A stretch of 33,285 bases of DNA from Treponemataceae bacterium (GCA_024680915.1 JAILBN010000076.1:1-33285); one strand, 5' to 3'; numbered from the stretch's first letter, positions 2,428 to 20,978 are shown. Notes: generated from the sequence alone by a model not told the origin. Program-made: numbers and translations.

Positions 2428-4086
2428 CTATTTATGCTCCAGCTTCAATGTCTTTGTAGGCTGGTCACAAACATCACTTGGTCCGTAATACTGGATTGCT
2501 CCTGGATAGAGGTAATCCGTGTTGATAGCCCACTGCTCGCGGTGAGAAGCGTATTCCTTGAAGGGTGCTCCGTCCAGCTCTACAAGAGCCTTGCGGATAA
2601 CCGGCTTCTTTGAACCGTGGCGCTGCTCCATGTTCATCATCATTGTAAGAGGAACTCCTCCTGCAATCCATTTGTCAGCGGGTGCTGTAAGGTTGCGTAC
2701 TGAGGAGAGGTAACCTGTTACACCAGAAGCTATAAGCACGAAGGCATTGTAACCCAGTGAGTAGCAGTAGTCTGCGTCGAAGTTCGACGGGAAGGCGCAG
2801 CGTCCCTCATAGCCGAAGAAGTGGCAGTATGAGCTGAACTTGCCCTTGTATGTGCCTTCTTTTTTCATCTCAGCAAGGCGTTTCTCAACTGTGAGGGCAA
2901 GAAGCTTCTCTGTGTCAATGCGGCTTACCTGTACGTTTCCGTGTGGGTCGCGGTCAGCAAGGAACTGAGATGCGATTGCTTCAGGCAGTGTATCGAAGGT
3001 TGCGAAGCTGTCTGCAGTGAGGTTGGCTTTGAGCCAGGCTTTCTTTGCTGCGAAATCTGTAAGAGCGTTGAACTCGTCTGCCTTAAGGGCCATCTTGTCG
3101 TTAAGCTCTGCGATAAGAACCTTCATTTCTGGAATGAACTCGACCAGTCCCTCTGGAATAAGGATTACACCGAAGTTTCCGGCTGTCTCGGCACGCTTTG
3201 CTACTACCTTGCAGATGTCATCCGTAATCTGGCGCAGGGTCATTTTCTTTGCTTCGACTTCCTCTGAGATAAGACAGATGTTAGCCTGGGTCTGGAGCTC
3301 GCATTCAAGGGCTATATGGCTTGCTGAGCGGCCCATAAGCTTGATGAAGTGCCAGTATTTCTTTGCGGAGTTTGCATCGCGCTCGATGTTTCCGATAAGC
3401 TCTGAATAGGTTTTGCAGGCTGTGTCGAAACCGAAGGAGGTTTCGATCATCTCATTCTTAAGGTCACCGTCGATAGTCTTAGGACAGCCGATAACTCTTG
3501 TGGCAACTCCGTTAGCTCTGAAGTATTCAGCGAGAAGAGCTGCGTTTGTGTTTGAGTCATCACCACCGATGATTACGATTGCATCAAGTCCCAGCTTTTT
3601 TGCTGTGTTTGCGGAAGCTGTGTACTGCTCCGGGGTCTCGATCTTTGTGCGGCCGGAACCGATGATGTCGAAGCCGCCTGTGTTGCGGTATGCGTCGATG
3701 AATTTATCATCGAACTCTACATAGTCACACTCGATAAGTCCTGATGGACCACCCTTGAAACCGTAGAGGGTTGAGTTTTTATTTGCTTTCTTGATACCGT
3801 CATAAAGTCCGGAGATGACGTTGTGTCCGCCTGGGGCCTGACCACCAGAAAGGATAACACCTACTTTGATTTCCTTGGAAACTTCTGGATTGTTGCCTTT
3901 GACAACGAGGGCTTCCGGCTTTCCGTATGTGTTCTTGAAAAGCTCTTTCAGCTCTGCCTGATCAGCAACAGATTCTGTTGCTTTTCCGAATTCTACGACG
4001 ATTTTGTCGAGATCATTTTTCAGAACAGCGGGAAGCTTAGGCTGATAGCCATAGCGTGCTGCCTGTAATGCAGAAATGTTTGGCAT
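2428..4086 (-). CDS. pfp: diphosphate--fructose-6-phosphate 1-phosphotransferase (PPi-PFK)
   Basis: The 552-residue protein matches the long PPi-dependent phosphofructokinase clade known in spirochaetes and plants; ATP enzymes are about 320 residues. It reversibly phosphorylates fructose 6-phosphate with pyrophosphate in cytoplasmic glycolysis/gluconeogenesis. Visible motifs are the glycine-rich [20 protein letters not shown] (the Asp after GGD marks PPi rather than ATP use) and [10 protein letters not shown] with the PPi-type Lys. The start is supported by AGGAG about 8 nt upstream. The leader is long and structured: an attenuator-like hairpin at 4106-4145 and a folded element at 4217-4315. 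It lies downstream of the GH4 gene on the same strand, but the structured 237-nt gap argues for its own control. Confidence 0.95.
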
Positions 4087-4323: not shown

Positions 4324-5718
4324 TTATTTTTTAAGCCAGTCAGGCAGCAGTGTGGAGGTTTTGTCCAGCATTGTTGAGAACAAGGCACGGCAGTCTGCTT
4401 CTGAAATGCATTTCATTGCAGGGTCGTTCCTGAAGGCGCGGAAAATCTGCTCTTTGTCATGGTTCATCCAGCCTTCGATTATTGTCTCGTGGTTGTAGAC
4501 ATGGCGCATCACAAGGGACTCAACTGGATAAGGAAGCTTTCCTGCCTGTACAGGTGTAAGCTCGCCATCTCTGAACACTGCGTTTGTCTCCACTACTGCA
4601 TCTGTCGGCACTCCCAGCATCTGGCCTTTGTTAGGCAGGTTTACGTTTGTCACCAAGGTCTCAAGGCCAAGAAGGGCTTTTATCTGTCTTACACCTTCTT
4701 CTCCAGAGGGCTTTATTTCAATCTTCTCTTTTCCGGATTCCAGGTCCAAGCTTCTCTTGTAAAGATGCTCTGCATTCTCTTTTCTCCAGCTTACAGGGGT
4801 AAGGGAGAAGCCCCATTTTGCTACCATCTCAGGGTTCTGCAGGTACCAGTGGGGAACGAATTCTGCCAGGTGCCTGTCACCGGCTGCGGCTATGAGACCG
4901 AAACGGCGGAAAAGGTCGAACTTAAGGCGGTGGTCACAAAGGAAGTATTTGTTGAGCCAGTTCTCAGGCTCCTTTCCTTTCCAGCCGGTTTTTGCATATT
5001 TGTCGCAGAATTCTGCATACATGGGCAGCAGATCCTGTCCCTGCCAGGTTACCTTGTCCAACCAGGTGAAGTGGTTTATTCCAAGAACATTGGTTTTGAT
5101 ATCTGAGCGGTCAACATTCTGGCAGCCGGTGAATTCTTTGACCATCTCTGCAAGAAGCTTCTGTGTACCGAATACCTCGTGGCAGCAGCCGAAGGCCTTT
5201 ATTCCTGGGAAGGTGGCATACATGATGCGAACACAGAGGGTCATTGGGTTGGTGTAGTTGATAACCCATGCATTCGGGCAGATATCCCGTATTTTCTCTG
5301 CGAAATAAACATATGCAGGGAGCGTTCTCATGGCGCGGATAATTCCACCAGGGCCTGCGGTGTCTCCTACAGACTGGTAAATTCCGTAAGCTTCAGGTGC
5401 GTGGACATCGATTTCCATGTCATCAAAGGTTCCTGGCAGAATTGATGCTATGACGAAATCTGCTCCAGTAAGGGCTTCCTCTATTGTCTTTACAGCTTTG
5501 TAGTTCCACTTTCCAAGGGCCTCTTCTCTGGCGGAAAGTCCGTTTCCGATTTTTTCATTTATAGAAGCTCTCTCAAAGTCTATATCGTAGAGAGCAATAT
5601 CTCCAGAAAGCTGGCTTTCCGGTGCCAGATCTGCCATAAGGTTCCAGGCCCAACCTCTGGAGCCGCCACCGATATAAGCGATTTTTATTCCAGAGATTTT
5701 ACCGTTTTCGTATTTCAT
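4324..5718 (-). CDS. GH4 glycosidase, CHEV type (likely alpha-galacturonidase/glucuronidase)
   Basis: The 464-residue protein is a family GH4 glycosidase. These enzymes use NAD+ and a divalent metal (usually Mn2+) and cleave by an oxidation-elimination route in the cytoplasm. The N-terminal NAD-binding loop is IAYIGGGSRGW (about 13-23); INYTNPM (153-159) and GINHF (213-217) follow. The metal-binding motif is CHEV (179-182). Within GH4 that motif marks uronic-acid enzymes such as Bacillus LplD and Thermotoga alpha-glucuronidases, rather than CHSV, CHGx or CNVP groups acting on neutral or phosphorylated sugars. The substrate is therefore probably an alpha-linked uronide. AGGAG precedes the ATG. 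A near-consensus promoter lies 5858-5886 with a leader of about 130 nt. It follows the YesMN-like pair, its likely regulators. Confidence 0.88.
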   Translation of the reverse strand: MKYENGKISGIKIAYIGGGSRGWAWNLMADLAPESQLSGDIALYDIDFERASINEKIGNGLSAREEALGKWNYKAVKTIEEALTGADFVIASILPGTFDDMEIDVHAPEAYGIYQSVGDTAGPGGIIRAMRTLPAYVYFAEKIRDICPNAWVINYTNPMTLCVRIMYATFPGIKAFGCCHEVFGTQKLLAEMVKEFTGCQNVDRSDIKTNVLGINHFTWLDKVTWQGQDLLPMYAEFCDKYAKTGWKGKEPENWLNKYFLCDHRLKFDLFRRFGLIAAAGDRHLAEFVPHWYLQNPEMVAKWGFSLTPVSWRKENAEHLYKRSLDLESGKEKIEIKPSGEEGVRQIKALLGLETLVTNVNLPNKGQMLGVPTDAVVETNAVFRDGELTPVQAGKLPYPVESLVMRHVYNHETIIEGWMNHDKEQIFRAFRNDPAMKCISEADCRALFSTMLDKTSTLLPDWLKK

Positions 5719-5857
5719 CTGCTTCTCCTTATAACTTCAACGTCGGCAGCTTTTCAAAAGGGGAGGGCACTTTCTTGCCGGCGTATTCGTTGTTAACTAT
5801 TATTTTAACCATTCTTAGGGCATTTTTGTACATGCTTTTGTAAAAAAGGTATATTTC

Positions 5858-5886
5858 TTTATACAGGCGGTTTTTTTCAGGGTCAA
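5858..5886 (-). promoter_or_regulatory. sigma-70-type promoter of the GH4 gene
   Basis: On the minus strand TTGACC (5886-5881) and TATAAA (5863-5858) are separated by exactly 17 bp. The predicted start near 5851 gives a leader of about 130 nt to the GH4 ATG. The response-regulator stop lies just upstream (5927), so the GH4 gene can be transcribed independently of the two-component genes. Confidence 0.65.
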
Positions 5887-5926
5887 GTAAAAAAACATAT
5901 ATGAAATGTTAAAATTCAGTGGAGCA

Positions 5927-7423
5927 TTAATGCTGTCTGAATTGACCTGGTGTTTGTCCTGTGGCCTTTTTGAAAAGCTGACAGAAATATGAAGGATTGT
6001 CCTCAAAGCCAGTCTGCTCTGCGATCTGCTGTATTGATGAATGTGTTTCTGTCAGCAGTTGCTTGGCTTTCTCTATGCGTTTCTCAAGAAGATAATCTGA
6101 GAATTTATAGCCTGTCTCTTTCTTGAAAAGCTTTCCTAGATAATCGGAATTCATGAAGGCTGTTTCTGAAGCGAGCTTTTGCAGTGAAATACGATTTTCC
6201 GACAGATGCTTTTCTATATAGTCCACCATTGTTTGTATTGGTTTTGAATATTTCTGTATGTGGAAGCCTTTCAATTCCATCATTATAATATCTTCGAAAA
6301 TGCTTTTCAGCTCTTTAATGGATACAGCCTGCTGAAGGTTCCTTGCTTGTTCTGTAAAGCGGTCTCCGCATACGGAATATTGGATATGCCAAAAAAGATC
6401 CTTAGCGTCTTTTAGCGGGGTGCAGGAGCCTTCCAGGATTTTCATCAGTTGCTTCATCTCTTTGCTTATCGCGGCTTCGTCTTTTCTCTGTATAGCGTCT
6501 GTTATTCTTAAGGTGCTTTCCTTTATTATAAAGTCTGTGTCTATGGGGGATATCTGGATATTATCCGCATATACGGTATATTTGTTCTCAAAATAGAGCT
6601 TTGTCTCCATGAGGGTACAGAGCTGTTCAAAAAGTTCGGGGATAAATTCCGCTTCCTTTGAGGAGCTTATGAAAACAGGGGAGGGGTTCGTAATTCCACT
6701 GTTTTCAAGGAGCTGCTGTAATTCTTGATAAATAGTATCGGATTGACGGCCCTGGATATTCTTTGTGATAAGGAAAAGAGAATCCTTCTCTATATAGACC
6801 ATAGACTCTTCCAGGTCATGCTCCAAAGCTTCCGTTAAAAGATGCTTCATGGCCTCTGTTTTATCGGACAGGCAGTCTTCCACAGAAAATATGCGGAAAG
6901 TTCCATCCATGTCCGAAAAATGGGTTTTCATCTCGTATATTTGATCTTTGTTTTGGTTCTGGTTCTGTTTATGGAGAAAATCGTGGATAAGATTCTGCTT
7001 CGCCCTTGGAATTTGGTTCCATACGTGCTTTTTTTTGTCTGCTTTATCCAGGGCCGCTTTCGTAATTCTTATAAGGTCTTCTGGCTTGCAGGGCTTTAGA
7101 ATGTAGTCATCTACCCCTTGCTTAATCGCAGTCTGGGCAAATTTAAAATCATCGTAGCTGGAAAGGATGAGGAACTCAGCTGAGACTGAATTCTCATTAC
7201 ATTGTTTTATTAGTTCAAGTCCGTCCATGCCCGGCATTACAATGTCTGTGATCACCACATCAGGAGGATCTCTCTTTTCTGACATTTCCAGAATGATTGA
7301 GAGAGCTTCCTTTCCATCCTTTGCGGTCAAAATCTCCACATCTGATTCAAAATAATTTTTCAGTGTCGCAGAAATACCCTCCCTGATTATCCTCTCATCA
7401 TCTGCTATAACGATACTATACAT
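5927..7423 (-). CDS. YesN-like response regulator, receiver plus AraC-type DNA-binding domain
   Basis: The 498-residue protein starts with a CheY-like receiver: acidic pocket Asp8-Asp9, phosphoacceptor Asp60 in VITDIVMPGMDG, and the conserved Lys in ILKPCKPEDL. A long middle region (about 130-390) has no domain that I recognise. The C-terminus carries two AraC-type helix-turn-helix units (ISLQKLASETAF and SSIQQIAEQTGF, the latter followed by the typical FCQLFKKATGQTPGQFR). This architecture is the YesN family, which pairs with YesM kinases and activates sugar-utilisation operons. AGGAG precedes the ATG and the kinase stop is 24 nt upstream. Likely targets are the divergent transporter operon at 9380 and the GH4 gene. 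Confidence 0.92.
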   Translation of the reverse strand: MYSIVIADDERIIREGISATLKNYFESDVEILTAKDGKEALSIILEMSEKRDPPDVVITDIVMPGMDGLELIKQCNENSVSAEFLILSSYDDFKFAQTAIKQGVDDYILKPCKPEDLIRITKAALDKADKKKHVWNQIPRAKQNLIHDFLHKQNQNQNKDQIYEMKTHFSDMDGTFRIFSVEDCLSDKTEAMKHLLTEALEHDLEESMVYIEKDSLFLITKNIQGRQSDTIYQELQQLLENSGITNPSPVFISSSKEAEFIPELFEQLCTLMETKLYFENKYTVYADNIQISPIDTDFIIKESTLRITDAIQRKDEAAISKEMKQLMKILEGSCTPLKDAKDLFWHIQYSVCGDRFTEQARNLQQAVSIKELKSIFEDIIMMELKGFHIQKYSKPIQTMVDYIEKHLSENRISLQKLASETAFMNSDYLGKLFKKETGYKFSDYLLEKRIEKAKQLLTETHSSIQQIAEQTGFEDNPSYFCQLFKKATGQTPGQFRQH

Positions 7424-7447
7424 AGTTTATCTCCTGCCAATGGCTCA

Positions 7448-9223
7448 CTATTCTTTTTGCTCATACTTCTGCTCCCCTGAATTGTAAGGAATGCATACCT
7501 GAAGAGATGTACCGGTCCTTTTTCCTTCCTTGTCGATTTCGGGCAAAGCCCTGATTCCGTATTGAGTACCGAATAAAATCTGAAGACGATATTGTATGTT
7601 CTGAAGCCCGAAAGAATTGGATTCAGTTTGTTCTGTACCTTCTATGATCCTATTGATTTTATCCGTATCGGTTGTCATTCCATTGTCTGTAATCTGTATC
7701 AGCAAATTTTTTCCTTTTATCATAAAGGAAAGGAATATGCTGCATACTCCCCTGTGTTTTTCCAGTTGATGTCTTATACAATTCTCCACGATAGGCTGTA
7801 TCGTCATTTTGGGTAGCATCTGGGTCTTGTCCACATTGCCTTCGTCTATACTGAATTCCAGCCTGTCCTCGAATCTTATCTGCTCTATTACTATATAATC
7901 ATGAAGCAGCTCAAGCTCTTCCCCTAGAGAAATAATATCAGGTTTTTTTATTGATGAGCGGAGTAAATTACTGAGGGCCAGCGTCATTTCTGCGGTGGGC
8001 TGGTCTTGGGAGGCTACTGCGTTCCAATGTATAGTCTCCAGGGTATTATAGAGGAAGTGAGGGTTTATCTGTTTCTGCAGCATCTTGTATTTGATATCCG
8101 CTATAGTCAGCTGTTTTTGGTAAACTTCTGTTATAAGCCTGTTTATACGGGTTATCATTATATTGTAGCTTGTGGTGAAGTCCGCTATTTCCTGTACAAT
8201 CTGTTGTTTGGGGACGGGTAAGGTCTCCAACATGTCGTCTTTGGCGTTGAGCATCAGTTTTGACATACGCGTAAGGGGGTTACAGGTTTCCCGGATGATA
8301 CGGTTTATAGAAATGATTATTACTATGCCGAGGAGAAAATAAATCACGTAATACCAGGTGTTTGCTAAGGACACTTTTTTCATGGCAGTATCCATATCCA
8401 TGATATGGATAAAGGTCCAGCCGTCCACTTTTGAGTTTATCCTTCTGTAAACAGTCTTCGCGTTGGTGTCCAGCATAATGTCTGCTTCAGGTGGTTCCGC
8501 GAGAAGTGAGGCTATACGGGGTTCCTTGTATATGGGATTGTCATAGTCATACTGCATACCGTTTATGTAGCAGATGAGCCTGGAATCATGGTTCTCTTCC
8601 GTCATGTAACCGTAAGGAACCAGAATCTCTGGGTTCAGGTACATTATAAGGACACCGTAAGACCGGAAGGCGTCTATGGGGTATATGGAACGAATGGATT
8701 TTGCGAAAACTATCATGGTCGGATTTTCCGGGTCAATACGCCATATATTCCTTCCCTTTTTATTGACAGCCTCTTGCCTGACTTCTTCAAGGAATTCTTC
8801 TCTTGGCTGTATAAGGGACCGGTTCAGTATATTCATCCTGTAGTCGGAATCGAATATAAAGTAGGTGGCAGAAACGTGCTGAATATTGACAGTGACATTG
8901 AAAAATAAGTCATTTAGGGCTTTCATGGCTACGTATGCTTCGTAAGTTCCTGGGTTGTCCTTGCTGGTTTTTAGGTTTGTCTGTATTGTGGAGTTTCCCA
9001 CGATATCTATAGACAGCTGTCCTAGATCTTTCAGGTTGCGCTCGACTGTCTTAGTGTAGAGTGTAAGCTTGTCCGCCGATTCGGAGAGGATAAGCTCATT
9101 GTATATCCTGGCAATTCCTCGTTCCATAAGAATATATACAATATTAAGTATGAGAAATTGTATGATGATTATTTCGAATATACGTTGCTTCAGTGGTCTG
9201 GTCGACTTTTTTGAACCTTTCAT
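7448..9223 (-). CDS. YesM-like sensor histidine kinase
   Basis: The 591-residue membrane kinase has two transmembrane segments (about 14-33 and 288-306) flanking an extracytoplasmic sensor region of ~250 residues. A HAMP-like stretch follows, then the His_kinase module with the phospho-acceptor His in NPHFLYNTLETIHW. The ATP-binding part shows the N box (QPIVENCIRH), ITDNGM and SFGLQNIQYRL. It should phosphorylate the adjacent response regulator. There is no Shine-Dalgarno sequence before the ATG. Instead an extended -10 box (TGTTATAAT, 9243-9235) ends 11 nt upstream, implying a leader of only a few nucleotides. The gene is divergent from the sugar-binding-protein gene. Confidence 0.92.
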   Translation of the reverse strand: MKGSKKSTRPLKQRIFEIIIIQFLILNIVYILMERGIARIYNELILSESADKLTLYTKTVERNLKDLGQLSIDIVGNSTIQTNLKTSKDNPGTYEAYVAMKALNDLFFNVTVNIQHVSATYFIFDSDYRMNILNRSLIQPREEFLEEVRQEAVNKKGRNIWRIDPENPTMIVFAKSIRSIYPIDAFRSYGVLIMYLNPEILVPYGYMTEENHDSRLICYINGMQYDYDNPIYKEPRIASLLAEPPEADIMLDTNAKTVYRRINSKVDGWTFIHIMDMDTAMKKVSLANTWYYVIYFLLGIVIIISINRIIRETCNPLTRMSKLMLNAKDDMLETLPVPKQQIVQEIADFTTSYNIMITRINRLITEVYQKQLTIADIKYKMLQKQINPHFLYNTLETIHWNAVASQDQPTAEMTLALSNLLRSSIKKPDIISLGEELELLHDYIVIEQIRFEDRLEFSIDEGNVDKTQMLPKMTIQPIVENCIRHQLEKHRGVCSIFLSFMIKGKNLLIQITDNGMTTDTDKINRIIEGTEQTESNSFGLQNIQYRLQILFGTQYGIRALPEIDKEGKRTGTSLQVCIPYNSGEQKYEQKE

Positions 9224-9234
9224 TATGTTTTATG

Positions 9235-9243
9235 ATTATAACA
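9235..9243 (-). promoter_or_regulatory. extended -10 promoter of the kinase gene
   Basis: TGTTATAAT on the minus strand is a perfect extended -10 element (TGN plus TATAAT). No good -35 is seen at 17 bp (AGAGAA). The ATG begins 11 nt after the box, so the mRNA leader should be about 4-5 nt without a ribosome-binding site. Confidence 0.5.
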
Positions 9244-9338
9244 GAAGAATTAATTTTTTCTCTAATTTTTAATAAAAAAAGTCTGTTTTTTTAATTTTTT
9301 TATTAAAAATTATCATTGATACTTACCATAAGAGAAAA

Positions 9339-9359
9339 GCAGATTTGTTTATTATCTGC
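9339..9359 (+). promoter_or_regulatory. palindrome upstream of the sugar-binding-protein gene
   Basis: GCAGAT (9339-9344) and ATCTGC (9354-9359) form a perfect inverted repeat around 9 nt, ending a few bases before the AAGGAGG ribosome-binding site. It could be a protein-binding site or a 5' mRNA hairpin. A smaller inverted repeat, CTTACCATAAG, sits at 9322-9332. The rest of the 156-nt divergent region is AT-rich and no convincing -35/-10 pair for the plus strand stood out. Confidence 0.4.
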
Positions 9360-9379
9360 AAAAAAGGAGGAAAGAAACT

Positions 9380-10663
9380 ATGAAAAAAATGGTTCTTGTT
9401 GTTCTTGCACTGCTTATGGCTTTTTCTGTTCTGTATGCAGGTGGAAAGAAAGAAGTAAAGGCTGAGGATGAGCCTATTACTCTGCGTATCGCATGGTGGG
9501 GATCACAGAAGCGCCATGATGCTACACTGGCAGTACTTGACCTGTACACAAAGAAAACAGGTGTTCAGTTTGAGGCAGAACCTCTTCCATTCGATGGATA
9601 TTTCGCAAAGCTCAACACTCTTGCTGCTGCAAATGATGTTTGGGATATCATCCAGCTCGGAAGTAACTTCCCTACATACCTTGATGTCCTTGAGCCACTG
9701 GACAGCTATGTAGAGCGCGGACTCATCGATGTTTCAGGAACATCAGCCGGAACAATGTCAACGACACGTCTTAACGGAAATGGTGCTCTCTATGGTATCT
9801 CACTTGGTACTAACACATACGGTATCGCTTATGACCCAGCTCTTTTCGCTGCTGCAGGTGTTGCAGAGCCAGCTGAGAACTGGACATGGGCAGATTACGA
9901 GAAAGCTGCTATGACAATTCATGAGAAGCTGGGAATCTTCGGTTCATCAAAGCTTGATGACTTCATCTCCGGTGCAAGTATCCGTGTTCCACAGCATGAC
10001 GAGAATGCTTCTCTCTTTGCTCCTGAGGGAAACAAGCTTGGATACGATGACGACTATCCTATCGAGGACTACTGGGCAATCCGCAAGCGCCTTGTTGACG
10101 CTGGTGCCTATCCTGATCCAGGACGTATCAATGAGATCAAAGATATCGAAGGTGACTTCCTTGTTCGTGGCGAAGCTGCTATGACATTCCTTGCAAGTAA
10201 CCAGTTCGTAGCTCTCTGCTCAGCAGCAGGACGTCCTCTTAAGATGGCAACACTCCCAAGAGAGTCAGCAGATGGTCCTATCGGTGCCACAATGCAGTCT
10301 TCACAGCAGTTCAGTATGTTCAATGGTTCTAAGTATAAGGACGAAGTTGCTAAGTTCCTCAGCTTCTTTGTAAATGATATCGAAGCAAACCGCATCCTCA
10401 ATGCAGAGCGCGGAAACCCGATCATGGCTCCTGTTCTCAATGACCTTGAGAAAAGTGCTGATGACGTAAAGAAAGAGCTGTATTCATTCATGGCTGTTAT
10501 GACAAAGCTTTCTTCAATCGCTCTTAATTTTGATGTTCCTAAGCAGGAAGAGATCAAAGATCTGTATTGGAGAATCGAGGATCAGGTTGTTTTCGGAAAG
10601 TATACACCTGCTGAAGGTGCAAAACAGTTCCGCAAAGAGGCTGAAGCTATTTTCGCAAAATAA
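9380..10663 (+). CDS. extracellular sugar-binding protein (family 1) of ABC transporter
   Basis: The 427-residue protein is a MalE/YesO-like solute-binding protein that captures an oligosaccharide outside the inner membrane for the two permeases downstream. A signal peptide (MKKMVLVVLALLMAFSVLYA) ends in AxA-type residues before GGKKE. There is no lipobox Cys, so a soluble periplasmic form or an atypical anchor is expected; the GGKKE start of the mature protein is common in treponemal binding proteins. The mature domain shows the family's ITLRIAWWG beginning and a PFDGYFAKLNTL segment. The AGGAGG site is strong. Hairpins after the stop (10682-10751) probably favour higher expression of this gene than of the permeases. 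Confidence 0.92.
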   Translation: MKKMVLVVLALLMAFSVLYAGGKKEVKAEDEPITLRIAWWGSQKRHDATLAVLDLYTKKTGVQFEAEPLPFDGYFAKLNTLAAANDVWDIIQLGSNFPTYLDVLEPLDSYVERGLIDVSGTSAGTMSTTRLNGNGALYGISLGTNTYGIAYDPALFAAAGVAEPAENWTWADYEKAAMTIHEKLGIFGSSKLDDFISGASIRVPQHDENASLFAPEGNKLGYDDDYPIEDYWAIRKRLVDAGAYPDPGRINEIKDIEGDFLVRGEAAMTFLASNQFVALCSAAGRPLKMATLPRESADGPIGATMQSSQQFSMFNGSKYKDEVAKFLSFFVNDIEANRILNAERGNPIMAPVLNDLEKSADDVKKELYSFMAVMTKLSSIALNFDVPKQEEIKDLYWRIEDQVVFGKYTPAEGAKQFRKEAEAIFAK

Positions 10664-10681
10664 AAAAAATAATTAAATTTA

Positions 10682-10751
10682 GTGTTTGAAAGCGTAATGC
10701 TTTCAAACACATTCGCGAGGGGCGGTTTTGAAAAGTTCTATCTCAAAATCG
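10682..10751 (+). promoter_or_regulatory. two intercistronic stem-loops between binding-protein and permease genes
   Basis: GTGTTTGAAAGC (10682-10693) pairs perfectly over 12 bp with GCTTTCAAACAC (10699-10710) around a 5-nt loop. A second stem, CGGTTTTGA (10723-10731) with TCAAAATCG (10743-10751), has 9 pairs including one G-U. Neither is followed by a T tract, so they are more likely mRNA-stabilising or processing structures than terminators, as known between malE and malF. Confidence 0.65.
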
Positions 10752-10828
10752 TCCTGGCGATGAAGAATCCTGTGGTCTTCAAAAACTGGGCTGCAGTACT
10801 CCCTTTTTCCCTGACATGGAGTTTTCTT

Positions 10829-11752
10829 ATGAAAGAAAAAAACACGGGCGCAGTACGTCTGCGTAAGTTTTTGAATAACAACAATACAGTAGGTTATATT
10901 TTTTCAATGCCCTTTATCATCGGTTTCCTTGGCTTCGTTATTATTCCGATGATTGTATCTTTGTACTTTTCCTTTACAAAATATAATATCCGCACAGCGC
11001 CAGAATGGATTGGTCTGTCAAACTATACAAGACTTTTTACGGATGCCCGCTTTTATAAATCGGTCTGGGTTACTGTAAAGTATGTTCTTTTCGCTGTTCC
11101 TTTGAAGCTTGCTTTTGCTCTTCTTATTGCCTTTATCCTTACGAAGAAATCAAAGCTGGAAAGCATTCTCCGTGCCGTATATTATCTGCCTTCTCTGATT
11201 GGTGGAAGTGTCGCCGTAACGCTGGTTTGGAAGGAGCTTTTCTCATACAACGGGCTTGTCAATACAATAATCGGTTTCTTCGGTATTCCGACTATCTCTT
11301 GGTTCGGTGATGAGCGTTTCGCTGTTTGGCCCCTTATACTTCTGACTGTATGGCAGTTCGGTTCCTCAATGATTATTTTCGCTGCCGGAATCAAGCAGAT
11401 TCCTGTCACTTATTATGAGGCAGCCCGCATAGATGGTGCCGGTGGAGCACGTATTTTCTTCAATATCACCCTGCCCCAGCTTTCTCCGATTATTCTGTTC
11501 AATCTTGTAATGCAGATAATCTCCGGTTTCATGGTCTTCACTCAGTCTTACATCATTTCCGGCGGAACTGGGCGACCCAATGATTCTACGAACTTTATTG
11601 CCCTTTATATTTATAATGAGGCATTCAAATATTTTGACATGGGCTATGCAAGTGCACTTGCATGGATTCTTCTTCTGATGATAGCCCTTATAACTGTCGT
11701 TGTGTTCAAGACATCCAACATGTGGGTTTTCTACGAATACAAAGAGGATTAA
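10829..11752 (+). CDS. ABC sugar transporter permease, MalF/YesP-like
   Basis: The product is 307 residues from the ATG at 10829, with six predicted membrane segments. The first is in VGYIFSMPFIIGFLGFVIIP. The EAA loop that docks on the ATPase reads YYEAARIDGAGGARIFFNITLP, near the usual position. An upstream GTG at 10682 keeps the frame open but lies inside the perfect stem-loop and has no ribosome-binding site. At 10829 a GGAG site sits 7 nt upstream and the protein then begins as MalF-type permeases do. It forms the inner-membrane channel with the next gene product. No ATPase gene is nearby. Confidence 0.9.
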   Translation: MKEKNTGAVRLRKFLNNNNTVGYIFSMPFIIGFLGFVIIPMIVSLYFSFTKYNIRTAPEWIGLSNYTRLFTDARFYKSVWVTVKYVLFAVPLKLAFALLIAFILTKKSKLESILRAVYYLPSLIGGSVAVTLVWKELFSYNGLVNTIIGFFGIPTISWFGDERFAVWPLILLTVWQFGSSMIIFAAGIKQIPVTYYEAARIDGAGGARIFFNITLPQLSPIILFNLVMQIISGFMVFTQSYIISGGTGRPNDSTNFIALYIYNEAFKYFDMGYASALAWILLLMIALITVVVFKTSNMWVFYEYKED

Positions 11753-11763
11753 GGTAGGTTTAT

Positions 11764-12612
11764 ATGGCTTCTTTACATAATAAAAAAACATTGAGTGCAA
11801 TCGGTACTGTTTTCGTGATCCTTCTTGGATTACTTATGATATATCCGGTTATTTGGATGATTCTTGGATCCTTCAAAGACAACTATCAGATCCTTAACGA
11901 GTCCACAAAGCTTTTGCCCAATGAATGGAATTTCGAGAATTATTCAAACGGTTGGAAGGGATATGGCAAGACCTCTTTCTCTACCTTCTTCCTTAATTCC
12001 TTCTTCGTCACAGGCTTGGGTACTATCGGAGTCACTATCTCGTCAGCCCTTATCGCCTATGCCTTTGCCCGTGTAAAATTCAAGGGTCGCAAGCTCCTTT
12101 TCAGCTGTATGATCAGTACTATGATGCTTCCTGGCCAGGTCGTGCAGATTCCTCAATACGTAATCTTCCAGAAGCTGCATATGACAAACTCTTATGTCCC
12201 TCTTATACTTCCATGTTTCTTCGGGGCGGCCTTCTTTATCTACCTTATGATGCAGTTCATGGCTGGTCTTCCTAAGGAGCTTGACGAGGCTGCTTTTATG
12301 GAGGGTTGCTCAAAATACTCAATTTTCGTAAGGATTATTTTCCCTCTCCTTGCTCCGGCTTTGATAACTACCTTTATTATCCAGTTCTACTGGAAGTGGG
12401 ATGACTTTATGGGACCTCTCATTTATCTGAGCCGCCCTCAGAAGTATACGGTTTCTCTGGCTATAAAGATGTTCGCGGATTCAACGTCAACCACGGATTA
12501 TGGTGCCATGTTCGCCATGTCTACACTTTCGCTGATTCCAGTCTTCTTGATTTTCTTGTTCTTTAACAAGTATCTTATGGAAGGAATCAGTACAAGCGGT
12601 TTGAAGGGTTGA
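11764..12612 (+). CDS. ABC sugar transporter permease, MalG/YesQ-like
   Basis: The 282-residue permease has six predicted membrane segments, starting with a hydrophobic stretch at about 13-35 that ends in the family-typical IYPVIWMILGSFK. The EAA motif is ELDEAAFMEGCSKYSIFVRI, followed by IFPLLAP; Cys occupies the usual second position after the conserved Gly. The C-terminus ends in the characteristic LMEGISTSGLKG. It starts 11 nt after the preceding permease with an AAGG-type site and completes the membrane part of the importer. A terminator-like structure follows (12636-12700). Confidence 0.92.
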   Translation: MASLHNKKTLSAIGTVFVILLGLLMIYPVIWMILGSFKDNYQILNESTKLLPNEWNFENYSNGWKGYGKTSFSTFFLNSFFVTGLGTIGVTISSALIAYAFARVKFKGRKLLFSCMISTMMLPGQVVQIPQYVIFQKLHMTNSYVPLILPCFFGAAFFIYLMMQFMAGLPKELDEAAFMEGCSKYSIFVRIIFPLLAPALITTFIIQFYWKWDDFMGPLIYLSRPQKYTVSLAIKMFADSTSTTDYGAMFAMSTLSLIPVFLIFLFFNKYLMEGISTSGLKG

Positions 12613-12635
12613 TTCCATCCTGCTTACCGAAAATG

Positions 12636-12700
12636 GGTTGTCCGGTAAGACTCTGCTCTGTTTTCCAGCAGGCAGATGTTTTGAGGGCAACCTTTTTTTT
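12636..12700 (+). terminator. intrinsic terminator with possible alternative fold after transporter genes
   Basis: GGTTGTCC (12636-12643) pairs with GGGCAACC (12685-12692), eight pairs with one G-U, and is followed by eight T. A small hairpin CTGCT/AGCAG (12653-12671) lies inside the loop. A competing stem, CTTACCG (12623-12629) with CGGTAAG (12643-12649), overlaps the first arm by one base. Partial termination here would lower expression of the glycosidase-like gene. Confidence 0.5.
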
Positions 12701-12732
12701 AGTCTAAAAAATGAAGTTTTCAGGGAGGTTCT

Positions 12733-14940
12733 ATGAAAATAAACAGGAAAGAGCTTGTGACCAAGCATGATCCTCTTTTTTATGAAGTGAATTATGAGGC
12801 GCCTCTTTCAGTGGGGAACGGAAATTTTGTCTTCACTGCGGATCCTACAGGCTTTCAGTCCTTTCATGAGGAATTCCTGAAAAAAGGTGTTCCTTTGTGC
12901 ACGATGAGCAGCTGGGGCTGGCACACTTCTCCTGATAATGGACGACAATATGACTTTAATGACCTGAGGTTCACAGATTATTCTTACAATGGCCGGCTTG
13001 TAAAATACGCAAGTGAGAAGCAGCCTGGTAACGAAAAGATATACGACTGGCTGAGGCAGAACCCCCACAGAATGAATCTTTCTGTAATAGCTCTTTTATA
13101 TAACGGGAAGCCTATCCATCCTGAGGAAGTGGAGAATATAGGTCAGCATCTTCATCTTTATAGGGGTGTCCTTGAAAGTTCCTTCACTCTTCATGGCTCT
13201 CCTGTAACTGTTGAAAGCTCTGTCCTTCCGGACAAAGACATCCTTCTTTTTTCAGTTGAATGTCCAGATTCTCTTGCGGGGCATCTTAGCGTAAGACTTT
13301 CTTTTGAAGGAGGCAGTCCGGATATTTCTGGATTCTCGCCTTTACCTCTTTCGACCCTTTCTTCAGACTCAAAGGATTTGGATAACAGTCTTTCTCTTGT
13401 TTCTGAAAAGCCTTCTTCCCTTGTTTTTCGCCATATTGTTGACAATGATCTGTTTTTGACAGGGATTTCTGTGGAGATTAAGGACTGTGATTCAGGATTA
13501 GCTGAAAATTCTGAGGAAAAAACAAAAACCGTTTCCAGGGTGTCTCAGCTTGTGGCTTCTGAGCACTCGGTGGTCATAAATCTTTCCTCTGGTCTTTCCT
13601 TGCTTAAGATAGGCTTTGCTCCGGGGGCGCCTTGTCAGGAGCCTGCTTCTGAGCTTTCCCAGGAAGAGCTTCTAGCCCATGCTGTGGAAGAAGACTTTAA
13701 TACGCTTTCTGAGCGGGTTGAGCTTTTCTGGTATGATTTCTGGGAGAAGGGGGGCATAGTCAGTTTTGAAGGCAGCAAGGATAAGCGTGCTTTTGAGCTG
13801 GAGCGTCGAATAGTTTTGTCCCAGTATCTTCAGGCAATAAACTGCACGGGAACTATACCTCCTGCAGAGACAGGACTTTTTTGTAATAGCTGGTATGGTA
13901 AATTCCACTTGGAGATGCATTTTTGGCATACGGCATCCCTGCCTCAATGGAACCATCCTGAGCTTATGGAAAAGAGCTTTCCTTGGTATCTCCGTCATTT
14001 ACCTGAAGCCCGCAGTAATGCTGCCAGAAATGGTTTCAAGGGAGCCCGCTGGCCTAAGATGATTGCTGAGACAGCCTTGGACAGCCCTTCTGTGATAGCG
14101 GTTCTGCTCGTATGGCAGCAGCCTCATATCCTATATATGCTGGAAGAGGTTTATAGATGCGGTCGTGACCGGTCTTTCCTTGAGAAATATTGGCCTATAG
14201 TTAAGGAAAGTGCCGATTTTATGGCAGATTTCGCCGTAAAGAATGGGAATTCAGGTCTTTATGAACTGCTTCCTCCTCTTATCCCTGTTCAGGAAGAATA
14301 CAATCCCAGGACGGTGAAGAATCCTGCCTTTGAGGTAAGTTATTGGCGCTACGGTCTCAAAATAGCCTGTGAGTGGGCAAAAAGACTGGGAGAGCAGCTT
14401 CCCGGCTTATGGCTTGATGTTATGGAAAATATGGCTGCTCCTCCTTTACTGACAGATGCTGAGGGAAAATCGCTGTATACCTCCCATGAGAATTGCCCTG
14501 ATGTTTTCACATCCTTTAACAAGGATCATCCTTCCATGCTTTCTTCTTTCTCCTATTTTGCAGATGAAAGGGTCAACCCTGAGATTATGGGAAGGACTTT
14601 AGAGAAAGTGCTGGAATGCTGGAATTTTCAGTCTTTGTGGGGATGGGATTTCGCCGCAATGGCTATGACAGCGGTTCGTTTGGGTCTTAAAGACCTGGCT
14701 GTTGAACTGCTCCTTCAAGATACACCAAAAAATTTTTATGCTGAGAATGGTCATAATTTCCAGAAAACACGGACTGATCTTCCAGCTTATTTGCCGGGAA
14801 ATGGTGCTCTGCTTCTTGCTTTGGCTATGATGACAGCGGGATATGCAGGATGTGTCCCGGAGGAGGGCAGGACAGCCGGTTTCCCTGATGATGGAAATTG
14901 GACTGTGTCCTATGAAGGAATAAAGCCTCTTTTCTCATGA
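12733..14940 (+). CDS. six-hairpin glycosidase-like protein of unknown specificity
   Basis: This 735-residue protein has no signal peptide and should be cytoplasmic. The N-terminal ~330 residues are beta-rich and begin with HDPLFYEVNYEAPLSVGNG. The remainder is an alpha-helical catalytic-type domain with WYGKFHLEMHFWH (about 387-399), KGARWPKM and VWQQPHILYMLEE segments. This layout is that of (alpha/alpha)6 six-hairpin glycosidases related in shape to GH65/GH95-type enzymes. I recognise it as a recurring family in polysaccharide-degrading bacteria but cannot assign a CAZy number or substrate. Glu in HLEMHF is a candidate active-site residue. GGGAGG precedes the ATG. As the fourth gene behind the transporter it probably acts on the imported oligosaccharide. 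Confidence 0.75.
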   Translation: MKINRKELVTKHDPLFYEVNYEAPLSVGNGNFVFTADPTGFQSFHEEFLKKGVPLCTMSSWGWHTSPDNGRQYDFNDLRFTDYSYNGRLVKYASEKQPGNEKIYDWLRQNPHRMNLSVIALLYNGKPIHPEEVENIGQHLHLYRGVLESSFTLHGSPVTVESSVLPDKDILLFSVECPDSLAGHLSVRLSFEGGSPDISGFSPLPLSTLSSDSKDLDNSLSLVSEKPSSLVFRHIVDNDLFLTGISVEIKDCDSGLAENSEEKTKTVSRVSQLVASEHSVVINLSSGLSLLKIGFAPGAPCQEPASELSQEELLAHAVEEDFNTLSERVELFWYDFWEKGGIVSFEGSKDKRAFELERRIVLSQYLQAINCTGTIPPAETGLFCNSWYGKFHLEMHFWHTASLPQWNHPELMEKSFPWYLRHLPEARSNAARNGFKGARWPKMIAETALDSPSVIAVLLVWQQPHILYMLEEVYRCGRDRSFLEKYWPIVKESADFMADFAVKNGNSGLYELLPPLIPVQEEYNPRTVKNPAFEVSYWRYGLKIACEWAKRLGEQLPGLWLDVMENMAAPPLLTDAEGKSLYTSHENCPDVFTSFNKDHPSMLSSFSYFADERVNPEIMGRTLEKVLECWNFQSLWGWDFAAMAMTAVRLGLKDLAVELLLQDTPKNFYAENGHNFQKTRTDLPAYLPGNGALLLALAMMTAGYAGCVPEEGRTAGFPDDGNWTVSYEGIKPLFS

Positions 14941-14968
14941 ATAGTAATAGCTTTGTCAGAGATTAATT

Positions 14969-16492
14969 TCACATGATAGGCGAGAAAAGCTTACAGAAGC
15001 TCCATACTGTTCTTTGCAGTATGAAACGAGAGTTGAACCATGCCAGCTCCATCTCTTCTGATTTTTCCAAATCCTTTTTGAAAATAGAACTGTTATACTT
15101 TGCGAAACCCTCGTCATAGAAGACCATATTCATTTCAAAGTGAAGCTCAAAACTCCTTGTGTCGATGTTCGTGGTGCCTATGGTTATCAGCTTATCATCT
15201 ATTATAAGCATCTTTGAGTGAATGAAGCCCGGGTATGCATAGAATTTTACGCCATATTCCATGATCTCTCTTATAAACTGGAAGGCGGCGGCCTTTACAT
15301 AGCTTTTGTCCCAGTCTCTTGGGACTATCACGTATACCTTCCTTCCTGCCATCGAGGCCAGCTTGAGAGCGGAGAAAAAAGCCTCGTCAGGTGTAAAATA
15401 TGGTGTCTCTATGTATATGCTTTCCTTTGCGTTCATAATCATCCGTATCATACAGTCCCTGATTTGATGCTTGTGGTTGTCGTTCGGACTGGAGAGGAGC
15501 AGCTGTACCGGAATTATATCGTCTCCGGGTACATCGTTCATGAGGTTATCGCTGATTTCATTATTCAGGGACTCTATTTTTTCCAGTGGGAAATAGGTCT
15601 CTGTTTTTTTCAGGGATTTTATTGATTTTTTCCCGTAGGCACAACTGTAATAATCAATCATAAAAGTTATCAGCATTGCTGCGACGCAAGAGCCGGTCAT
15701 TCTTAGGTGGGTGTCACGCCAGGGTTTGTCTGGATTTTTCCCTAAGCCTATTATGTATTCGTCTCCAATATTTATGCCGCCTATATAACCTATTTTTTCA
15801 TCAATTATGACGTTTTTCCTATGATTGCGGAAATTTACCGTAAGTGGGGGGCCTATTCTTATGGGGAAAAAAGGAATACTAGATCCACCTGCATTGTCCA
15901 GCTTACGGAAAAAAAATCTGCGGGTAAGCAAGGACCCGAAGTCATCGTAGAGAAGCTTTACGTCTACCCCGTTCTCAGCTTTCCTGCAGAGGATATCCAT
16001 AATCTGCTTACCTATATCGTCTTCCCTGAAAATAAAAAACTCCATGAAGATGCTTTTTTCCGCAGATTCCAAGTCTTCTATAAGGGACTTGAACATATCT
16101 TTACCGTTGGTGAACTCCGATATAGTCTCTGTATATGCTATGTTACTTATGGCATTATTGAAATTCATCTTTACTATATCGCTGTATTCTATAAGTGTTT
16201 TGTTTTTTATTTTCGATTTGATTTTCTCGAAATATTGTTCCTGCTCCATTACATAGGGTGTGGTACGGCTGTAGATATATTTCTGTATATTATCCATCTT
16301 ACGTGTTTTTGTGAAAAAATGACCACTGAGCATGAAATACAAAAATATACCGACTCCTGGAAGAAAATATATTATAAACATCCAACTGAATTTTCGGCCA
16401 GCATCTTTTCTTTCAAAAAAAAGGATGAACAGTATGAAAAGGATTTGAAGAGAAGTGATCAGATAGCTGAAGATATTCCACGTTATTTCCAT
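14969..16492 (-). CDS. cls: cardiolipin synthase (phospholipase D family)
   Basis: The 507-residue membrane enzyme has two N-terminal transmembrane helices (about 7-24 and 35-57) and two phospholipase D modules. The HKD motifs are HRKNVIID and HSKMLIID, each followed by the usual glycine/threonine-rich strand (GYIGGINIGDEY; TIGTTNIDTRSF). Bacterial Cls joins two phosphatidylglycerol molecules to make cardiolipin and glycerol; length and layout fit. There is no Shine-Dalgarno sequence. TATAAT ends 7 nt before the ATG with TTTATA 17 bp upstream, predicting a leaderless mRNA. It converges with the glycosidase-like gene across 28 nt without an obvious terminator. The family symbol is used without a paralogue number. 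Confidence 0.92.
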   Translation of the reverse strand: MEITWNIFSYLITSLQILFILFILFFERKDAGRKFSWMFIIYFLPGVGIFLYFMLSGHFFTKTRKMDNIQKYIYSRTTPYVMEQEQYFEKIKSKIKNKTLIEYSDIVKMNFNNAISNIAYTETISEFTNGKDMFKSLIEDLESAEKSIFMEFFIFREDDIGKQIMDILCRKAENGVDVKLLYDDFGSLLTRRFFFRKLDNAGGSSIPFFPIRIGPPLTVNFRNHRKNVIIDEKIGYIGGINIGDEYIIGLGKNPDKPWRDTHLRMTGSCVAAMLITFMIDYYSCAYGKKSIKSLKKTETYFPLEKIESLNNEISDNLMNDVPGDDIIPVQLLLSSPNDNHKHQIRDCMIRMIMNAKESIYIETPYFTPDEAFFSALKLASMAGRKVYVIVPRDWDKSYVKAAAFQFIREIMEYGVKFYAYPGFIHSKMLIIDDKLITIGTTNIDTRSFELHFEMNMVFYDEGFAKYNSSIFKKDLEKSEEMELAWFNSRFILQRTVWSFCKLFSPIM

Positions 16493-18621: not shown

Positions 18622-20289
18622 CTAGTCCTCCTGGAAAATGGCAACAGGTGCCCATTTCGTTGTGTAAGCTGTTATATCAGGTGACGCTTCCTCCCATATG
18701 GACTGAATCGCATATGTTCTGGGGCGTGTCACGTTTCTTGCTGTTATTTTAGATGCCTTAATAAGGTTATATCCTCTTGATATGGTTATATGGGAAGAAT
18801 CCAGATTCCCGAAATAAAAGGAAGCAGGGTTTTGTTCAGGTGAAGCTATTGGGAAATTCAGTCCTGCTCCCATGGCGGGATCCGCGGGAACCCAGCCGAT
18901 CTCATCAATGTAGAATTCTGCCCACCAATGGGTCCGGGAGCTTCCGTCTTCACCTACAAGGATTCCTGCCACAGGAATAGCCGGAATACCAGCTGCTCGT
19001 GCCAAAGCTGTAAAGATTATGGCTTCATCGTAGGCATCCGCGTAGCCGGTTTCTATTGAGTCATAAACCTCGCTGTAGATGGGGCGCGGATCGTACAGCA
19101 GGTGGAAATTGGAGACTACCCAAGAATAAAGGAGTGAAGCTTTTTTCCATGGAGAAGTTTCTTTTTTCACTATTGAGGATGCTATGTCTTTTATACGCTT
19201 GTCATCGGCTGGTACAATTTCATCCGCTAGAGTCCATTTTGAACAATATTCTGATGAAATGGAGCCGGCTTTTGCTGTTTGTTTTTTATTCTCTGTCTCA
19301 ATCTTCCATACTGTAACCTTGTAACCGTCGGAGATTGTGGTATTTTCCTCTGATTCTGACATTGCGGGTATCTGATGTACTGCTGTGCCTGTATAGTCAA
19401 GGATAACTGGGTCCTGATTGTAGAAGGTCTCATTTATTTCCCTTTGCCAAGCACAGGAAGCAGGTTTCGGCATAAAAATATAGATGGAGGCTGACGAACT
19501 GGCTTTTATGTCTGATGCCGCCATAGAAAGATTTATGTTATACTGCTTTTTGTCTGAATATTTTTTTTGACCAGCAGGTGTTGTCACCTCAAAAAGAACT
19601 TTGTTGCTTATCCCGTTTGCAGATGCTACATAAATGCTTCCTGTGGTTGCGCCGTCGGGAATTCTTACTCTTATTTCATGGTCGCTCCAGAAAAGGTAGT
19701 CAGAGTCGAATTCTGAGCAGGAAATATAGGAATCTGTGGTTGTCTGATCTGCTTTTGCCGTAAACCAAATCTGGGAATCGCTCCTCATGGGACCGAAGTT
19801 GTTTCCGTTTATGGTAAGCGATGAACCGATCGTTCCTTTTTTTATACTCAATGAGGTTATTTCTGGAAGTATCGCTTCTCTTATTTCAGAAGCGGGTATG
19901 GGTAAGGTCTCTTTATCAGTAAAGACAGTGGCATTGGAGCGGCCCGCCGGGGTTATCACATAGACAAGACCGTCTGTGCTGTGAAAAGGCAGTATGAATT
20001 GAATCTCATCATTGTTCCAGGATATATAGGATGAAGCCATTAGCCTTTCTCCGCTGAGCTCAATATAACTGTCTGACTGTATGCTGCCGAATCCGGAGCC
20101 TTTTATGGTTAGAATATCGCCGCTGTCACCAGTGTTTGGCGTCATGCCTTCTATTACAGGAGGCCTTTTTAAATAGGTGGTGGTTATGACAGTGATTATT
20201 ACTGCAATAAGTATCAGGATAAATAAAATAGCCGCCCTGAAGAGCGGATATTTTCTGAGAAGATAAGAAAACGAAAGGGTCTGCTTCAC
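18622..20289 (-). CDS. membrane protein with two TIG domains and inactive-looking transglutaminase domain
   Basis: The 555-residue protein has one transmembrane helix (about 19-40), then two IPT/TIG immunoglobulin-like domains (about 43-125 and 145-238). A transglutaminase-like domain follows (about 370-490). The segment TGYADAYDEAIIFTALARAAGIPA aligns with the usual GxC...ARAAGIPAR block, but the catalytic Cys position is Ala419 (codon 19033-19035). His454 (THWWAEF) and Asp470 (VPADPA) are kept. Protease or transferase activity is therefore unlikely and a binding or sensory role outside the membrane is inferred. Its ATG overlaps the anti-sigma stop by 4 nt, so it belongs to the sigma/anti-sigma operon and may be a partner in envelope signalling. 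Confidence 0.82.
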   Translation of the reverse strand: MKQTLSFSYLLRKYPLFRAAILFILILIAVIITVITTTYLKRPPVIEGMTPNTGDSGDILTIKGSGFGSIQSDSYIELSGERLMASSYISWNNDEIQFILPFHSTDGLVYVITPAGRSNATVFTDKETLPIPASEIREAILPEITSLSIKKGTIGSSLTINGNNFGPMRSDSQIWFTAKADQTTTDSYISCSEFDSDYLFWSDHEIRVRIPDGATTGSIYVASANGISNKVLFEVTTPAGQKKYSDKKQYNINLSMAASDIKASSSASIYIFMPKPASCAWQREINETFYNQDPVILDYTGTAVHQIPAMSESEENTTISDGYKVTVWKIETENKKQTAKAGSISSEYCSKWTLADEIVPADDKRIKDIASSIVKKETSPWKKASLLYSWVVSNFHLLYDPRPIYSEVYDSIETGYADAYDEAIIFTALARAAGIPAIPVAGILVGEDGSSRTHWWAEFYIDEIGWVPADPAMGAGLNFPIASPEQNPASFYFGNLDSSHITISRGYNLIKASKITARNVTRPRTYAIQSIWEEASPDITAYTTKWAPVAIFQED

Positions 20290-20978
20290 TTTTGTCCTTC
20301 AGGAGAATACGTGACAGGAATCTGTATGAGTTTCATGGCATCCTTTTCAGAAGATTTTATTCCTGAGACGTTGCTCAAATCTATTGTAATCTGGATTTTG
20401 TTTGTCTTTATATCAGAACCGAAAATATCTATACTTGTAAGTATCTGATTCTGAAGGGCACTTGTCAAATCAGTGTTGTAGAGCGGTGTATTAAGTACGG
20501 TACTGTCAGATGCTGGCGCTGCCGCTGCGGACTTGAGACGTAGACCGCTTTCTGTACTGATTCCCACCGAGCTCAATAATTCTGGAATATAGTTGAAGGT
20601 CTTTAAGTCCGTTTTCAAAGGTGATTCGTTGACTCCCAGTATACGAAGAGGTATGACAAGGGCAAGAATGAGGGCTGCTGCCATTGCTGGAACGACCCTG
20701 CGGAGGAAGAACTCATTTCTTCTGCTTGTTTTCCTTATAAAGGAGTTATAGGATCTTTTTGCCTGCAGCTTGACGAAGCTGTCTTCAAGAGCTTTGTCAG
20801 AGATTACGATAGATGATGAGTCTTCCACAAAAACATTGTGGATTGCCTTCATCTTATTGAATTTCTCCTGGCAGACGCTGCATCGCTCAAGGTGCGCTTC
20901 TAGCTTTTCCTTAAATTGCTCTGGAAGTTCGTTATCGAGATAAACAGAATATAAATCCAAATCAGGACAGGTAGACAT
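20286..20978 (-). CDS. zf-HC2-type membrane anti-sigma factor
   Basis: The 230-residue protein has the cytoplasmic zinc-binding anti-sigma signature His29-x3-Cys33-x2-Cys36 (HLERCSVC), with Cys4 near the N-terminus. One transmembrane helix follows (about 95-113), then a ~115-residue extracytoplasmic part without a domain I recognise. Such proteins hold an ECF sigma factor inactive until an envelope signal arrives. The gene overlaps the sigma-factor gene by 17 nt and has an AGGAG site, the classic sigma/anti-sigma arrangement. Its stop overlaps the next ATG. Confidence 0.88.
   Translation of the reverse strand: MSTCPDLDLYSVYLDNELPEQFKEKLEAHLERCSVCQEKFNKMKAIHNVFVEDSSSIVISDKALEDSFVKLQAKRSYNSFIRKTSRRNEFFLRRVVPAMAAALILALVIPLRILGVNESPLKTDLKTFNYIPELLSSVGISTESGLRLKSAAAAPASDSTVLNTPLYNTDLTSALQNQILTSIDIFGSDIKTNKIQITIDLSNVSGIKSSEKDAMKLIQIPVTYSPEGQK

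Follow-up and report, generated by a model that had tools for sequence, protein, structure and literature searches.

In Bacillus subtilis, the solute-binding protein YesO takes as ligand deltaGalA-Rha-Gal from rhamnogalacturonan I (RG-I) (PMC7596534), and growth on RG-I and polygalacturonan is slower when yesOPQ is deleted (PMC5730181). The motif CHEV is a published mark of strict alpha-galacturonidases, going by the title of Thompson et al. 2013 as cited in PMC4650693. Here, we describe a related gene set from a gut-type spirochete, Treponemataceae bacterium (GCA_024680915.1). It lies on a contig of 33,285 bases (JAILBN010000076.1:1-33285; C120 in our numbering), which in its entirety is the window analyzed here and which belongs to a draft genome of 3.15 Mb (95.7% complete). 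The set comprises YesM/YesN-type regulators, a YesOPQ-like importer, a GH4 enzyme, and a 735-residue protein, hereafter the orphan, of an unnamed glycosidase family (Table 1). A pectin or RG-I setting of the locus is very probable, and we read it with moderate confidence as a cytoplasmic module for RG-I oligosaccharides, in which the GH4 enzyme would remove galacturonate (GalA) and the orphan, most likely, alpha-L-rhamnose. An earlier note on this DNA, made from its sequence alone, had likened the locus to pectin/rhamnogalacturonan uptake systems. This likeness is borne out by the YesO-like importer, the LplD-type GH4 enzyme, and the occurrence of relatives in pectin gene clusters, and the substrate is most likely a saturated RG-I oligosaccharide.

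The GH4 enzyme and the importer

The GH4 protein matches both the N-terminal and the C-terminal domain of its family. Its best match in the PDB is B. subtilis LplD (3fef, labelled alpha-galacturonidase) with 495 bits, while other GH4 structures score at most 83, and it carries at residues 179-182 the CHEV motif, which is also present in every intact GH4 protein adjoining a relative of the orphan. As judged from these similarities, it is a predicted alpha-galacturonidase of the LplD type, which sharpens the earlier description of a CHEV-type GH4 enzyme. A glucuronoxylan or alpha-glucuronide substrate was considered as the principal explanation and rejected, the GH4 enzyme being of the LplD type.

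The binding protein belongs to the YesO family, with YesO itself (5z6b) as its best solved relative over residues 1-425. A sugar-binding protein of Yersinia (2uvg), which we take to be the oligogalacturonide binder TogB, follows far behind with 64 bits. When the YesO contacts reported in PMC7596534 were mapped onto the window protein, W20, R25, N127, N254, Q255, and S286 proved to be conserved. The residues that grip the uronate carboxylate are among them, as are the uronate contacts W20, R25, N127, N254, and S286. The importer had been called YesOPQ-like before, and these matches uphold that name. A Pfam scan of positions 4324 to 16492 found no ATPase gene; the genome has one gene for an OB_MalK-type (MalK/MsmX-like) protein on another contig, C44.

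The orphan glycosidase and its family

In the Pfam scan, the orphan gave only weak matches to GH95cat (23.3 bits) and GH65m (14.8 bits), each with a cut-off of 27, and no NCBIfam family reached its threshold, the kojibiose hydrolase model scoring 46.7 bits against a cut-off of 800. It thus keeps its orphan status for Pfam and NCBIfam; a recent family number is possible in CAZy, which lay outside the searches. Literature searches yielded no description of the family. Membership in GH65, GH95, GH78, or GH106 was rejected by the Pfam and NCBIfam cut-offs, GH78 and GH106 not being among the Pfam matches. A search of all PDB sequences with a profile of 69 family members gave matches to GH65, weak ones to GH95, and no others, and no close solved relative was found there. 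The N-terminus, MKINRKELVTKHD, lacks a hydrophobic leader, and no signal peptide is apparent, in agreement with the earlier note.

The AlphaFold2 model of the orphan (pLDDT 93.2, pTM 0.94), for which the alignment was built without plasmid-derived rows, was compared by Foldseek and VIA-align. It shows the N-terminal beta-sandwich and (alpha/alpha)6 barrel of GH65 and matches the GH65 kojibiose hydrolase with a Z of 38.3 (2.9 A over 598 residues), GH95 with 26.9, and GH139, the 2-O-methyl-fucosidase of pectin rhamnogalacturonan II (RG-II), with 26.5. The GH139 match is one of fold, no family model having matched, and profile-profile comparison of GH95 with the orphan family gave a probability of 96.9%. 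GH78 and GH106 are not listed among the top structural neighbors, an absence that excludes nothing. On this model, the protein, earlier described as a six-hairpin glycosidase, is predicted to be a glycosidase that combines an (alpha/alpha)6 barrel and an N-terminal beta-sandwich and to form a separate, unnamed family within the GH65/GH95/GH139 fold group.

Five acidic residues (E379, E394, E521, E534, and D639) are invariant in 74 relatives. When aligned with kojibiose hydrolase 7fe3, E521 falls on the DE motif in the acid region of GH65, and a human enzyme used as template is shifted by one residue; the assignment of acid and base draws on such sequence alignments, off by one residue between templates, and on a gapped GH95 profile alignment. 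The segment between the last two helices (residues 661 to 687), where we take the catalytic base of GH65 and GH15 to lie, contains no conserved acid among the 74 relatives, and D639, which adjoins the GH95 "GW" position, is a candidate base.

A pattern scan of GTDB genomes revealed at least 576 relatives in at least 10 phyla, namely Bacillota, Spirochaetota, Acidobacteriota, Pseudomonadota, Planctomycetota, Verrucomicrobiota, Chlorobiota, Ignavibacteriota, Gemmatimonadota, and Hydrogenedentota. Plasmid-borne copies occur in Asticcacaulis and actinomycetes. Twin-arginine-type leaders are found on the Asticcacaulis and several acidobacterial copies, and the copies of Bacillota and Spirochaetota, including that of the window, mostly have none. 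In a tree of 100 loci, the window copy and two other Treponema-type copies are nested in sequences of gut Clostridia, and the remaining Spirochaetales copies stand apart from them. Because this trio is nearest to gut Clostridia and not to other Spirochaetales, horizontal transfer of its orphan gene is suggested.

Genomic context of relatives

The neighbors of the orphan are LplD-type GH4 genes with a YesOPQ-like or similar importer in Spirochaetales and Clostridia; GH105, PL22, GH95, and an importer in Paenibacillus; and pectate lyase (pelA), GH28, GH88, oligogalacturonate lyase, and KduI in Asticcacaulis. Among the 100 loci of the tree, GH4 stands near the orphan in 27, GH105 in 17, and both in 1 (Fisher p 0.036, a value to be treated as suggestive, as the loci are related and unequal in length). 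The two therefore look like alternative partners. GH105 removes unsaturated GalA, and GH4 removes saturated terminal GalA. Since both take terminal GalA and so expose rhamnose, their constant partner should act on rhamnose. At least 15 changes between presence and absence of GH4 fall on the tree, a number inflated by incomplete contigs, and the pairing of GH4 with the orphan is thus recurrent and not inherited once.

Two unrelated lineages join GH4 and the orphan to a whole rhamnose pathway. The order is GH4, orphan, GH43, two permeases, binding protein, RhaB, RhaA, and aldolase in a Spirochaetales locus (L110), and RhaB, RhaA, aldolase, binding protein, two permeases, orphan, GH43, and GH4 in a Defluviitaleaceae locus (L025), the latter with UxaA and UxaB on the other strand. 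UxaA and UxaB are also close to GH4 and the orphan in L053. To learn what stands near an LplD-like GH4 gene where the orphan is missing, we examined haloarchaeal loci; one of them (L135) carries GH78 in its place, a single supporting case, and the others were uninformative. That locus, on plasmid pHTUR01 of Haloterrigena turkmenica, combines two rhamnogalacturonan lyases, an LplD-like GH4, a beta-galactosidase, and GH78 in one cluster.

A small GH43 protein of about 298 residues adjoins the orphan in 21 loci (among them L107, L108, L110, and L025) and is absent from the window. Its nearest PDB relative, 5c0p, is labelled "endo-arabinase."

Co-occurrence was assessed in 149 genomes of the order, 18 with and 131 without the orphan. 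Rhamnose isomerase (RhaA) is encoded in 15/18 carriers and 40/131 others (p 2.5e-5), and uronate isomerase (UxaC) in 16 of the 18 and 83 of the 131 (p 0.03). In a count made in 20 carriers only, 15 lack GH78 and 18 lack GH106; 5 and 2, respectively, have it, in each case with one match below the cut-off. The genome of the window encodes UxaC, RhaA, and four GH88/105 matches.

Proposed function and alternatives

The earlier proposal that GH4 and the orphan act in sequence on an imported uronate oligosaccharide holds by context, the activity of the orphan being predicted and L-rhamnose its likely product. By the parallel with B. subtilis, YesM and YesN would detect the substrate and, in response, activate the divergent operon. 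The YesO-like protein would bind a galacturonate-ended oligosaccharide, which the two permeases would import, probably with energy from an MsmX-type ATPase that is shared and has its gene at another site. In the cytoplasm, GH4 would take terminal alpha-D-galacturonate off L-rhamnose by NAD- and metal-dependent redox elimination, and the orphan would cut the linkage that alternates with it, most likely that of alpha-L-rhamnose to galacturonate, as an inverting enzyme with E521 as the acid. Both being exo-acting, the two enzymes would take turns down the backbone, and the released sugars could enter the RhaBA-aldolase (rhamnose) and UxaCBA (galacturonate) pathways, both of which are represented in the genome of the window.

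We give roughly equal weight to accepting and to doubting that the orphan is an exo-alpha-L-rhamnosidase alternating with GH4 on saturated RG-I oligosaccharides. This activity is favored by the rhamnose-pathway loci (L110 and L025), the association with RhaA, the scarcity of GH78 and GH106, and the alternation of GH4 with GH105. Several observations weigh against it. The fold neighbors of the orphan cleave alpha-glucosides, alpha-L-fucosides or galactosides, and 2-O-methyl-fucosides, and none is a rhamnosidase. Counted by genus, the RhaA link (8/10 versus 28/52) is not significant (p 0.17), and relatedness may explain part of the association. The window itself contains no genes of rhamnose or galacturonate catabolism, and its genome has one GH78 gene, on contig C42, so that redundancy is possible. 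Some relatives stand beside GH106-like proteins (L017, L021, and L045) or PL22 (Paenibacillus), where they may have another role. Finally, the YesO contacts W52, D75, and K284 and most of those to rhamnose and galactose are not conserved in the binding protein, and we therefore read its ligand as probably uronate-ended and different from the exact YesO trisaccharide.

Within the same pectin/RG-I module, the orphan could instead remove a side-chain or decorating sugar (alpha-L-fucose or galactose, arabinose, or galactose) before or after GH4 acts, which we consider unlikely but worth serious attention. Its fold neighbors GH95 and GH139 act on alpha-L-fucose or L-galactose residues, GH139 doing so on pectin RG-II, the small GH43 is a frequent neighbor, and the YesO ligand has a galactose branch; however, side-chain partners vary (GH43, GH95, GH31, and GH2) and it is GH4 or GH105 that recurs, suggesting a backbone step, and two distant lineages have GH4 and the orphan linked to rhamnose operons. 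It is improbable that the orphan is exo-acting on a GalA linkage other than that cleaved by GH4, in a module for oligogalacturonides of homogalacturonan. Galacturonate is a constituent of homogalacturonan as well as of RG-I, relatives have pectate lyase, PL22, and KduI in their neighborhood, and loci L025 and L053 have UxaA/UxaB close to GH4 and the orphan, but the association with UxaC across genomes is weaker than that with RhaA, and the binding protein is nearer to YesO than to 2uvg. There is little to recommend the view that the orphan is a GH65-like glycosidase or phosphorylase of neutral sugars (alpha-glucosides) merely located in the locus: GH65 kojibiose hydrolase is its closest fold and sequence similarity to GH65 is detectable if weak, but identity amounts to 15-16%, no invariant acid lies in segment 661-687, where the GH65/GH15 base is presumed, and the pectin context extends across phyla.

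Returning to the rhamnosidase reading, we tentatively extend it, with somewhat less than even confidence, to the family as a whole, which would then consist of exo-acting RG-I alpha-L-rhamnosidases that stay in the cytoplasm in Bacillota and Spirochaetota, are exported in certain other phyla, and are partnered by GH4 or GH105. A family of hundreds of members in at least 10 phyla is without a Pfam or NCBIfam model, or a solved structure among the sequences searched, so that the annotation of pectin-degrading genomes leaves a gap in the rhamnogalacturonan pathway. From the partnership with GH4 or GH105, substrate and reaction can be predicted in concrete terms, and if this prediction is true, spirochetes and gut Clostridia have an added route for saturated RG-I oligosaccharides.

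Locus layout and other genes in the window

Table 1. Features of the locus (positions in the window)
Feature	Position	Strand	Evidence
GH4, LplD-type alpha-galacturonidase (predicted), 464 aa	4324-5718	-	Pfam GH4 PF02056, 195 bits; PF11975, 143 bits
YesN-type response regulator, receiver and AraC helix-turn-helix	5927-7423	-	Pfam Response_reg, 85 bits; HTH_18, 72 bits
YesM-type membrane sensor histidine kinase, His_kinase and HATPase	7448-9223	-	Pfam His_kinase PF06580, 90 bits
Divergent promoter region between yesM and the binding-protein gene	9224-9379		18-bp inverted repeat
YesO-like solute-binding protein with signal peptide	9380-10663	+	Best PDB match YesO 5z6b, 234 bits, E 2.4e-68
YesP-like ABC permease	10682-11752	+	Pfam BPD_transp_1, 50 bits
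YesQ-like ABC permease	11764-12612	+	Pfam BPD_transp_1, 63 bits
Orphan, unnamed (alpha/alpha)6 glycosidase, 735 residues, cytoplasmic, predicted exo-alpha-L-rhamnosidase	12733-14940	+	AlphaFold2 fold, invariant acids, genomic context

All genes named in the earlier note are real, and their open reading frames are intact in the gene calls of the window, but the range given there, 5927-14940, leaves out the GH4 gene. The latter is directly downstream of yesM-yesN on the minus strand; divergent from these, the binding protein and two permeases precede the orphan on the plus strand, where a convergent cardiolipin synthase gene marks the end of the set. The YesMN-type regulation foreseen earlier agrees with the finding of a PF06580 sensor kinase adjacent to a receiver-AraC regulator and divergent from the importer. 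Since the same gene order was found in another Treponema (L027), and GH4 near the orphan repeatedly across Spirochaetota and Bacillota, the grouping is not due to chance.

In the middle of the divergent region, an 18-bp perfect inverted repeat, TAATTTTTAATAAAAAAA, with a 14-nucleotide spacer (9263-9280 and 9295-9312) is a possible operator, although it is very rich in A+T. A scan of the window for Rfam elements found none. Promoter-like sites are near chance (24 versus 20.4 in shuffled sequence) and terminator-like sites exceed chance (20 versus 11.1); neither was used for any reading.

Directly downstream of the GH4 gene lies a gene for pyrophosphate-dependent phosphofructokinase (2428-4086; TIGR02477, 862 bits). 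An extracytoplasmic function (ECF)-type sigma factor and an adjacent zinc-finger anti-sigma-like protein (20286-21534) are followed by a transglutaminase/TIG protein (18622-20289), and a CbiK-type anaerobic cobalt chelatase gene (28409-29446) stands apart from the other cobalamin genes in the window.

Comparison with known systems

The gene set represents a variant of the YesOPQ/LplD pectin module, with the unnamed glycosidase family as its new element. Like the YesMN/YesOPQ/YesR system of B. subtilis, it has YesM/YesN-type regulators, a binding protein of the YesO type that keeps the uronate contacts, and two permeases, apparently without a local ATPase. It differs in that most rhamnose and galactose contacts of YesO are not conserved and in that the GH105 enzyme YesR is replaced by the predicted GH4 alpha-galacturonidase, for saturated ends, and the orphan. 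The GH4 enzyme resembles LplD from end to end and in its CHEV motif; unlike LplD, it adjoins a YesOPQ-like importer and is paired with the orphan. The orphan shares its whole-length architecture and the position of E521 at the acid-region DE motif with the GH65 kojibiose hydrolase of Flavobacterium johnsoniae (7fe3), from which it differs by an identity of 16%, scores below every family cut-off, and a segment between the last two helices that has no conserved acid. With GH95 (alpha-L-fucosidase/galactosidase) and GH139 (RG-II 2-O-methyl-fucosidase), it has a common architecture at an identity of 11-15%, and it scores below the Pfam GH95 cut-off.

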